Positions 14,470 through 39,257 of a stretch of DNA of 64,000 nt are shown here, in pieces. Under the pieces are notes generated by a model. That model did not search any database, had not been told where the DNA came from, and saw only the letters and a list, made by a program, of their open reading frames with translations. The translations under genes were made by a program, and so were the position numbers. The stretch comes from an uncultured Tateyamaria sp. (lineage in GTDB: Bacteria > Pseudomonadota > Alphaproteobacteria > Rhodobacterales > Rhodobacteraceae), in the NCBI GenBank assembly GCA_947501275.1, contig CANMVD010000004.1, positions 186,001 to 250,000 of the forward strand, written 5' to 3'. Position 1 is the first letter of the stretch, and each line of letters opens with the position of its first letter.

Positions 14470-15540
14470 TCAGCCGCGCCCGAGAGGGACGCGGGCGAAA
14501 GCCTCGAAGAACGAGGCAAAATGCTGCGTGGATGTTTTGGCGGCGCACAGAACAGCCACGGCTTCGGGATGCAGGGCATCCATGACTCCGTCGCGCATGT
14601 CCTCCCAATCTCCGTTGCGCTGATCTGCGCAGGACAGCAACGCGGCTGACATGGGTCGCAACGCCCCTTCCGGTCTGGTGCGCGGGCGGAACACACAGCG
14701 CGACGCAGGCACTGCGGCCCCGCTGTCATCGTGCCCCGTCATCAGTACGGACCATGTTGCAACAAGATAGGCGTGATAGTCGTCGCTCAGGCTTACATCA
14801 TCTGACGTCTCAACCGTGAATTCCGACAGATGGTCGCGCACAGTGCGTTCCCAAATTTCACTGGGGGACTGACCCGCCTGACGCAGAGCAACACAGATTT
14901 CTGCCAGCAGGTCGATGTTTTGGTCAAGGAACGCCAGAATGCCCGCATATTCCAGACTGAGCAGCGCCTCTGGATCCAGACAGGGATCACAACGCCCGTA
15001 TTTTGACAGGTAAAATACGATATGGGTCAGCTCGTAGGCCGCCTTTTTGTTGGGCAAAGCAAAGGTTGCTGATCGGTTGATAAAGGCGCGCAGCCGGTCA
15101 TCAAGCCCGACATCCGCAGCCGCAGTCTTGATCCCACGGCGCGCAAGCAGTCGACGGGCCTCGGCACGTTGCAGATCGCTCAATTCGGCCTCTGGCAGGC
15201 CCGAACGGGCCACCCAATCGCACAAGCGCTCCATCTGTGCGCCACCAAGTCCCAAATCCTCAAGATCAAGACCGATGGACAGCAGGAACCTGTAATATTG
15301 CGGGAAAAACCCGATCCGGTCGGACAGCGTTTCATAGAATTTGGCGTGCGGGGCCAGGTCTTCGGGCCCCACGCTTTGATTTGTACATTCCAGAATGTTC
15401 AGCAGTTCGGCATTTTCCTTGAGCCAGAACACGTCCTCTTGCACGCGGCGCTGTGTGGCAAACACATCAATCAGCGCCCCCTGCCGTTGCGACAGGCGCA
15501 ATCGGCGCGGCGGGACATTCAACGAGATGATATTGGACAT
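14470..15540 (-). CDS. hypothetical protein paired with the FSSGS-repeat gene
   Basis: I do not recognise a characterised family. The 356-residue product is predicted to be soluble and mostly helical, without signal peptide or membrane segments. Notable features are a basic start (PPRRLRLSQRQGAL), WLKENAELLNILECTNQSV near residue 40, a short Cys pair in YGRCDPCLDPEALLSLEYAG near residue 185 and RSATFALPNKKAAYELTHIVFYLSKYG before it. From memory it may correspond to a Rhodobacteraceae DUF (possibly DUF6902). I prefer the ATG at 15540, which has GGAG eight bases upstream, over the one at 15558. It lies 47 bases downstream of the repeat gene in the same direction, so the two are probably one operon. 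It has no radical-SAM, kinase or ligase motif. Confidence 0.72.
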   Translation of the reverse strand: MSNIISLNVPPRRLRLSQRQGALIDVFATQRRVQEDVFWLKENAELLNILECTNQSVGPEDLAPHAKFYETLSDRIGFFPQYYRFLLSIGLDLEDLGLGGAQMERLCDWVARSGLPEAELSDLQRAEARRLLARRGIKTAAADVGLDDRLRAFINRSATFALPNKKAAYELTHIVFYLSKYGRCDPCLDPEALLSLEYAGILAFLDQNIDLLAEICVALRQAGQSPSEIWERTVRDHLSEFTVETSDDVSLSDDYHAYLVATWSVLMTGHDDSGAAVPASRCVFRPRTRPEGALRPMSAALLSCADQRNGDWEDMRDGVMDALHPEAVAVLCAAKTSTQHFASFFEAFARVPLGRG

Positions 15541-15587
15541 GGGGGTATCTCCATTCATTTTTCGCGAGAACGTCCCGCCCGCTGCGC

Positions 15588-16049
15588 TCAGGACCCTGAC
15601 GAAAAGAGGCCGGTCACGTCGCCTGCTTCGGTTTTTGTGGCTGTTGGGGCTGACCCGGACGAAAACATTTCAGTTGCATCACCTGCGGTTGCATCGGTGG
15701 CCGTGGGCGCAGAACCAGAGGAAAACATTTCGATGGCATCACCCGCCGCGGTGTCGGACGCGGTTGGGGCCGAGCCGGATGAGAACATGTGCACAGCGTC
15801 ACCGGATGTGGCATCTGATGCCGTGGGCGCGGAGCCGGACGAAAACATCTCGATCGCATCACCTGCGGCAGTGTCGGACATCAATGTCGGCGCGGAACCG
15901 GAAGAGAACATGTGCACAGCATCACCCAAGATCGCTTCCCCGGACATGGGGGCAGAACCTGACGAAAACATCTCAACACAGTCACCTGTGTGCAGGGCGC
16001 TGGTGTCATCGAATTGGATTGCAGTGGCTGTTTTACGAAGGGCAGACAT
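15588..16049 (-). CDS. small protein with seven tandem FSSGS repeats
   Basis: The 153-residue product has a 25-residue lead (MSALRKTATAIQFDDTSALH then TGDCV) followed by seven copies of (E/H/G)(M/L)FSSGS. The first six continue AP plus an acidic, Ala/Thr-rich spacer ending in G-D. Units start at residues 26, 46, 67, 87, 107, 127 and 147, a period of 20 with one 21. There is one Cys (residue 24), no Lys in the repeats and no signal peptide or membrane segment. AGGAG nine bases before the ATG supports expression. It may correspond to a clade-specific DUF (possibly DUF6749). The leader-plus-repeated-core layout resembles a multicore peptide precursor, but a structural repeat or a ligand-binding scaffold is equally open. 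Confidence 0.78.
   Translation of the reverse strand: MSALRKTATAIQFDDTSALHTGDCVEMFSSGSAPMSGEAILGDAVHMFSSGSAPTLMSDTAAGDAIEMFSSGSAPTASDATSGDAVHMFSSGSAPTASDTAAGDAIEMFSSGSAPTATDATAGDATEMFSSGSAPTATKTEAGDVTGLFSSGS
15591..15974 (-). repeat. coding tandem repeat, about 60 bp period, seven units
   Basis: The DNA encoding the FSSGS units repeats every 60 bases (one unit of 63). The stretch for MFSSGSAP is the most conserved part and the spacer the least. Some codon variation separates the units, so the repeat is not a very recent duplication. It is entirely in frame within the 153-residue gene. Confidence 0.9.
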
Positions 16050-16143
16050 TTCGGTTCTCCTGGGTCGTTTTGAGTTAGTCGCCTTTAGGTTGCGACGCTC
16101 TTTTTCGATGCCCGTTAAAGATGCGTTCGCATAGCCAAAACTT

Positions 16144-16155
16144 TGCGGTACCGCA
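16144..16155. promoter_or_regulatory. perfect palindrome, possible operator
   Basis: TGCGGTACCGCA is a perfect 12-base inverted repeat, about 95 bases upstream of the repeat-protein gene. A dimeric regulator could bind it. No family consensus that I know matches, and a 12-base palindrome can occur by chance. Confidence 0.3.
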
Positions 16156-16321
16156 GCAGAGAGGAGATTTATTCACATAAGGAAAGCCACAGAAACCACT
16201 GATCACATTCAGCTTCATGTGGAATTGACGGTGCCTAAAAAAAAATTTCCACAGCCCTGTTTTGACTGTGTTTTTTAGCATTCCGTCGGCCGGTATGTAC
16301 CTTTTACCCCGAATCGGTTGG

Positions 16322-16347
16322 TTAAGAAATAGTTAATTCATGGTTAA
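16322..16347. promoter_or_regulatory. triple TTAA array with CtrA-box spacing
   Basis: TTAA at 16322-16325, 16333-16336 and 16344-16347 are each separated by exactly seven bases, giving two overlapping TTAA-N7-TTAA sites. That is the binding pattern of the alphaproteobacterial cell-cycle and motility regulator CtrA. The array is 70 bases before the xth start codon and about 270 bases before the divergent repeat-protein gene, so either or both could be controlled. The spacing is seen directly; CtrA binding is inferred. Confidence 0.55.
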
Positions 16348-39248: not shown

Positions 39249-39257
39249 TTATCCACA
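39249..39257. promoter_or_regulatory. DnaA box upstream of nrdJ
   Basis: TTATCCACA is a perfect match to the classical DnaA 9-mer. A mirror-image TCTGTGGA lies at 39227-39234, opposite TCCACAGA at 39252-39259. The box is about 440 bases upstream of nrdJ and 85 bases before the lipoprotein gene. DnaA is known to control ribonucleotide reductase genes in some bacteria. Confidence 0.4.

Follow-up and report, generated by a model that had tools for sequence, protein, structure and literature searches.

The yeast alpha-factor precursor carries tandem copies of a short peptide with variable spacers, and multicore precursors of the microviridin type contain cores longer than those reported here and are served by other enzyme families. 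We describe a two-gene unit in a stretch of 64,000 nucleotides from an uncultured Tateyamaria sp. (Rhodobacteraceae; assembly GCA_947501275.1, contig CANMVD010000004.1, positions 186,001 to 250,000), called the window below: a gene for a protein with seven copies of the pentapeptide FSSGS, followed by a gene of the Pfam family DUF6902. The unit probably encodes a multicore peptide precursor and a dedicated modifying enzyme, perhaps an epimerase, with chemistry, product and function as we infer them below.

The cores of microviridin, a ribosomally synthesized and post-translationally modified peptide, stand together in one polypeptide and are handled by one enzyme (PMC5934393), and fungal repeat precursors processed by Kex2 hold tandem copies of one short peptide between variable spacers (PMC7329392). 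The unit resembles both in layout. It differs from microviridin-type precursors in having up to 20 pentapeptide cores of species-specific spelling, and from the Kex2-processed precursors, which are eukaryotic and secreted, in being bacterial and having a linked DUF6902 gene.

For the partner protein, the closest comparison is with DUF6895, a family to which DUF6902 is homologous by sequence comparison and of which one member is a lasso-peptide epimerase according to the title of Shi et al. (ACS Catal. 2026, in the reference list of PMC13352647). Both families adjoin precursor-like genes, whereas the putative precursor in the window consists of repeated pentapeptide cores and its surroundings showed no recognisable lasso genes. 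MslH, the epimerase of the lasso peptide MS-271, is metal-dependent and has two His/Asp pairs and a calcineurin-like fold (PMC10406935). Two histidines and three acidic residues of DUF6902 stay invariant when it is aligned with DUF6895, but the protein is modelled as mostly helical, and any likeness to MslH would be convergent chemistry at most. No published description of the unit was found by family names, core strings or related topics in the open-access literature, a coverage outside which most subscription journals lie.

The repeat gene and its partner in the window

The first-pass annotation of the window had described two adjacent genes, one for a protein of 153 residues that contains FSSGS seven times and, 47 bp further on, one for a protein of 356 residues; this layout was borne out. 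Both open reading frames (ORFs) lie on the minus strand.

15588..16049, minus strand: putative multicore precursor gene, 153 aa, seven cores FSSGS (ORF, codons and core positions, core constraint)
15987..16049, minus strand: putative leader, residues 1-21, N terminus MSALRK (N-terminal motif before the first unit)
15954..15968, minus strand: core 1, FSSGS (this and the next six cores by codon and core positions)
15894..15908, minus strand: core 2, FSSGS
15831..15845, minus strand: core 3, FSSGS
15771..15785, minus strand: core 4, FSSGS
15711..15725, minus strand: core 5, FSSGS
15651..15665, minus strand: core 6, FSSGS
15591..15605, minus strand: core 7, FSSGS, the extreme C terminus of the repeat protein
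15549..15552, minus strand: GGAG ribosome-binding-like site, 8 nt before the ATG at 15540 (read from sequence)
14470..15540, minus strand: DUF6902 putative enzyme, 356 aa (Pfam PF21843 and PF21836; DUF6895 alignment; AlphaFold2 model with a predicted local distance difference test score, pLDDT, of 92.7)

FSSGS starts at residues 28, 48, 69, 89, 109, 129 and 149 of the repeat protein, in steps of 20, 21, 20, 20, 20 and 20, and the repetition in the gene exceeds what chance would give (Tandem Repeats Finder scores 183-312). The protein has no significant Pfam match. The alternation of E and H that had been noted before M/L-FSSGS is only partial, the residues in order being E, H, E, H, E, E and G. 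An alternative upstream start at 15558 would lengthen the DUF6902 protein to 362 aa; the 356-aa version was preferred because the GGAG site precedes its ATG.

Pairing of the two genes in Rhodobacterales

DUF6902 exceeded the cut-off in 107 of 390 sampled Rhodobacterales genomes, about a quarter; a 108th match, in genome G234, lay below the cut-off and was of the DUF6895 type. A repeat gene was present just upstream of DUF6902 in 106 of the 107 genomes (97 by profile, 9 by eye). The repeat-protein profile, used on a 390-genome sample drawn in the same way, matched 97 genomes, all of which belong to the 108 with a DUF6902 match; it had no hit in the 282 remaining genomes of the order. The 11 enzyme-positive genomes that it missed are the nine with a repeat ORF recognised by eye, which have unusual cores or, in one, a run of N; G234; and G176, which has no repeat ORF. 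An automatic check of the 107 loci found at least two in-register units in 102, and of the five that failed it L065, L100, L104 and the broken L122 have repeat ORFs by eye and G176 has none. The co-occurrence check that the first-pass annotation had proposed across the order thus supports its two-gene functional unit.

In a smaller sample of 61 genomes (the window's own and relatives), DUF6902 exceeded the cut-off in 22, all with a repeat ORF directly upstream, and in all 22 the unit lies between xthA and erpA (gaps of 1745-3084 bp). This interval measures 1745-2052 bp in the 19 Tateyamaria genomes that carry the unit and 37 bp in G019, the only genome of the genus that lacks it. No DUF6902 remnant was detected by tblastn in 12 fetched xthA-erpA intervals devoid of the unit. 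The unit is gained or lost as a whole.

At locus L122 (genome G208) the enzyme gene is split into several frames and the repeat gene is damaged too; because both are broken, the two seem to decay together.

The patchy distribution of two small co-occurring genes would also suit a toxin-antitoxin or anti-phage pair. Neither protein had a PADLOC hit, and a defence or toxin-antitoxin pair was rejected on this ground; moreover, no DUF6902 relative was found in the plasmid collection or in viral contigs (close relatives only), and the chromosomal site is fixed in all 22 relatives with the unit. Such a pair is very improbable. The same search, which did not extend to the phage collection, gave no sign of a mobile origin.

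Cores are alike within a gene and switch between species

From 211 loci, 174 distinct precursor ends were kept after removal of duplicates and of scores below 200; subsets of 160 genes, 164 and 167 were used for selection, upstream regions and enzyme comparison respectively. Four loci were excluded from the core statistics: L065, which has a run of N, and L094, L104 and L189, where the repeat ORF is missing, its start is trimmed or the contig ends. TSGST, a modal core out of register, was excluded as well. Units follow the pattern G-x5-[core of 5], the cores being in register with a glycine six residues upstream, which also served as the anchor. The N-terminal motif M-[STKNQL]-[AT]-x(1,2)-[KHR] precedes the first unit in 125 of 170 precursors, and the putative leaders of relatives often begin with MTALRK or MTAQRK. 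The repeat number, whose variation was to be checked, ranges from 2 to 20 in 171 of the 174 precursors. Of the 173 precursors having a core, 123 end with the last one, and 117 of 168 show no variation among their accepted units.

Fifty modal cores were found, of which four were wrong-frame or out of register; among the 46 that remain, FVSGL rests on one in-register unit and the other 45 on two or more. The first core position (P1) is mostly Phe. Ser, Thr or Cys occupies P3 in 46 of 46 cores, P2 in 36, P4 in 21 and P5 in 24. When letters were shuffled within cores, 46 at P3 was reached in none of 20,000 trials, the maximum being 39, or 43 with P1 held. A core-blind anchor (GD or GE) gave 1104 sites: 860 had an exact modal core, and P3 was Ser, Thr or Cys in 974; many of the remaining ones are out-of-register GD sites.

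As the first-pass annotation had supposed, the core is the most constrained part of the repeat. Over the 21 unit pairs of the window gene, the core shows 72 synonymous and 0 non-synonymous differences (proportion of synonymous differences, pS, 0.79), and the spacers have a proportion of non-synonymous differences (pN) of 0.47. The repeats are not recent copies, since the synonymous sites of the cores have diverged widely, and recent duplication was rejected as the cause of core identity in the window gene. Across the 160 genes, pN/pS was 0.13 for cores and 0.87 for spacers; the former value is too favourable, since a unit was accepted only if it differed from the modal core at no more than two positions, and the window figure is free of this bias, because all seven units were counted.

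Cores are alike within a gene and switch between species. Pairs of genes have the same modal-core residue at P2, P4 and P5 in 42%, 37% and 36% of cases, and a FastTree tree of 167 enzymes requires no fewer than 59 changes of the core label. Loci L141 and L142 encode enzymes that are 95% identical next to arrays of six FSSGS and seven FTSGS respectively; their first, second and last units, in which the flanks match, have all switched, with different codons. Some precursor genes mix two cores in blocks and are perhaps caught in transition. This coordinated switching of core copies calls for explanation.

It had been suggested that a repetitive scaffold, for example a metal- or membrane-binding one, fits equally well. 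On such a reading the repeat protein would be a stable multivalent ligand or assembly protein bound by DUF6902, with no release of peptides. The AlphaFold2 model of the repeat protein does draw strands at the cores, and no linked protease was seen. However, the mean pLDDT of this model is only 50.6, so that the protein has no confident fold and a confidently folded scaffold is unsupported; a fixed scaffold would need neither core switching nor copy numbers of 2 to 20; and DUF6902 keeps His, Asp and Glu residues that are also invariant in DUF6895. We consider the scaffold unlikely.

Homology of DUF6902 with DUF6895 and possible chemistry

The partner protein, previously left without a family name, is a DUF6902 member (PF21843; 511.8 bits against a cut-off of 27, E 1e-153, profile positions 1-351 of 351), and the same 356-aa protein exceeds the DUF6895 cut-off (PF21836; 82.2 bits against 23.8, E 5.6e-23). 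In an alignment of 16 DUF6902 and 12 DUF6895 sequences, which does not include the titled lasso-peptide epimerase itself, E45, Y169, H173, G182, D210, E214 and H256 are invariant (16/16 and 12/12). E45, H173, D210, E214 and H256 are candidate catalytic residues common to the two families. The pair had been described as unlinked to any known maturase motif; a maturase link does exist, because DUF6895 includes the member titled an epimerase. The CDPC motif that had been singled out is not a family trait, relatives having mostly RRDP at the same place, and this poor conservation led us to reject it as a metal or catalytic motif.

The AlphaFold2 model of DUF6902 is mostly helical, and we take the protein to be all-helical and probably built as an alpha/alpha toroid. 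Its best structural matches include terpene cyclases, the farnesyltransferase beta subunit and a polysaccharide lyase; Foldseek with the model gave nothing at E <= 0.001, and absence from the VIA list excludes no family. A search of the PDB by single sequence or profile gave no significant match.

Thirteen DUF6895 loci from Pseudomonadota, Streptomyces, Kitasatospora and Pseudalkalibacillus were read by eye. In ten of them (L219, L220, L221, L124, L125, L225-L228 and L231) a short ORF with a leader-like (helical) stretch and an aromatic core lies just upstream; examples of these cores are GPWYAY, GYVLAWERYVLVV and DWTFVSPNYVYKG, and some are present twice. L222 and L230 are doubtful, and L229, with two tandem DUF6895 genes, shows no short ORF in the part read. 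The reading of contexts covered neither L217 and L218 (below cut-off) nor one plasmid match (H5), all of the DUF6895 type. These short precursor-like ORFs next to DUF6895 genes, recognised by eye, support the idea that members of the superfamily act on linked peptides.

The short ORFs beside DUF6895 genes in several phyla are apparently further unexplored precursor families.

The layout and the evolution of the array fit the multicore precursor with a processing or binding partner to which the first-pass annotation had likened the pair; modification, excision and release of the cores would complete it as follows. The repeat gene would give a precursor with a leader of about 21 residues and then 2-20 units of G-x5-core-spacer (7 in the window), with the final core usually forming the C terminus. 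DUF6902 would work along the array and modify each core, possibly using two histidines and their acidic partners to invert an alpha-carbon from L to D; the residue inverted may be the third of the core, which is invariably Ser, Thr or Cys. Proteases encoded elsewhere would then excise the cores. In many other genera the product may be exported by the EamA permease encoded directly downstream, a gene not present in the window's genus, and it would be used as a secreted peptide. Epimerisation is tentatively the likeliest single chemistry for DUF6902, somewhat short of an even chance.

With the same layout, DUF6902 might instead alter the invariant Ser, Thr or Cys by dehydration, cyclisation, acylation, prenylation or glycosylation. 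The P3 rule suits a reaction on a side-chain O or S, and terpene cyclases, a farnesyltransferase subunit and a polysaccharide lyase are among the best model matches. This reading is weakened by the homology with DUF6895 and its titled epimerase, and by the DUF6895-linked cores read, which are not based on Ser, Thr or Cys. In addition, Pfam shows no further enzyme domain in DUF6902, no other search for nucleotide- or donor-binding motifs having been made. Side-chain modification is possible, with the chances somewhat against it.

Neighbouring genes

An EamA-like transporter gene lies directly downstream of DUF6902 on the same strand in 59 of the 98 genomes of the order outside Tateyamaria, as found by tblastn with a single representative (L179), itself assigned by Pfam. 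Among 80 named loci it follows DUF6902 in 50; the 80 include 15 Tateyamaria loci, all without it. Most projected EamA starts fall no more than about 25 bases from the DUF6902 stop, and many of them precede it; in L179 stop and start overlap by four bases. The window genome has no close EamA relative (best 30% identity).

Four scanned neighbours in the window match arginyl-tRNA synthetase, an HD phosphohydrolase, an Fe-S biosynthesis protein and an exo/endonuclease, and the fifth matches nothing. Recurrent neighbours in the 80 loci are the exo/endonuclease, the Fe-S protein, the HD phosphohydrolase, ArgS, DksA, an FAD-binding protein, HNH and an Na/H exchanger. This survey covered flanks of up to 4 kb and scanned cluster representatives, not every cluster; two of these had no match. 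Neither lasso, lanthipeptide, YcaO, radical-SAM or ATP-grasp enzymes nor a linked protease were seen among the neighbours scanned in the window and the 80 loci.

The region upstream of the repeat gene

Three features were located between the repeat gene and xthA in the window. We take the 9-mers to be DnaA boxes and TTAA-N7-TTAA to be the CtrA motif.

16169..16177, plus strand: degenerate DnaA box TTATTCACA, 1 mismatch, position -128 to the repeat gene (sequence)
16245..16253, plus strand: degenerate DnaA box ATTTCCACA, 2 mismatches, 76 bp from the first (sequence; aligned with the box of relatives)
16322..16347, plus strand: two overlapping TTAA-N7-TTAA (CtrA-like) motifs, between the unit and xthA (motif scan)

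Perfect boxes (TTATCCACA) are present in 106 of 164 upstream regions of 400 bp each, and absent from 58, the window's own among them. The 164 regions contain 169 perfect boxes, compared with a mean of 0.4 in 20 shuffle sets, and these peak near -200 and -125. In the 53 loci with two boxes in the same orientation, the spacing is 76 bp in 35 and 77 bp in 6, and paired boxes precede the repeat gene in several genera. Ten whole genomes contain 19-35 TTATCCACA-type 9-mers each, versus 16-24 for a reversed-pattern control. None was found in the 12 fetched xthA-erpA intervals lacking the unit, and the boxes are therefore not supported as a property of xthA.

The sole perfect TTATCCACA 9-mer of the window lies at 39249-39257 (0.16 expected).

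TTAA-N7-TTAA motifs occur in 34 of the 164 regions, versus 1.1 in shuffles, and in 1 of the 12 intervals without the unit; those of the window could serve the divergent xthA as well. A sigma-70 promoter scan found 0 sites (0.8 expected).

A terminator-like hairpin with a T run lies at 16250-16270 on the minus strand, about 200 bp before the repeat gene as that gene is transcribed; with 4 such sites in the region and 2.9 expected, it is possibly due to chance.

Significance

A probable peptide-making unit is carried by about a quarter of the sampled Rhodobacterales genomes. Because its five-letter core is alike within a genome and differs between species, the prediction lends itself unusually well to a direct test by mass spectrometry. 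That 46 cores obey one rule, a middle Ser, Thr or Cys, points to the site of the reaction, and with this fixed P3 DUF6902 would be a peptide enzyme both iterative and tolerant. The unit might even be a bacterial counterpart of multi-copy pheromone precursors, making a species-specific pentapeptide with a D residue that is exported by EamA (DMT) and acts as a DnaA-box-tied, cell-cycle-linked signal; taken as a whole, this picture is improbable. In an abundant marine group, the paired DnaA boxes suggest that peptide production is linked to the control of replication.
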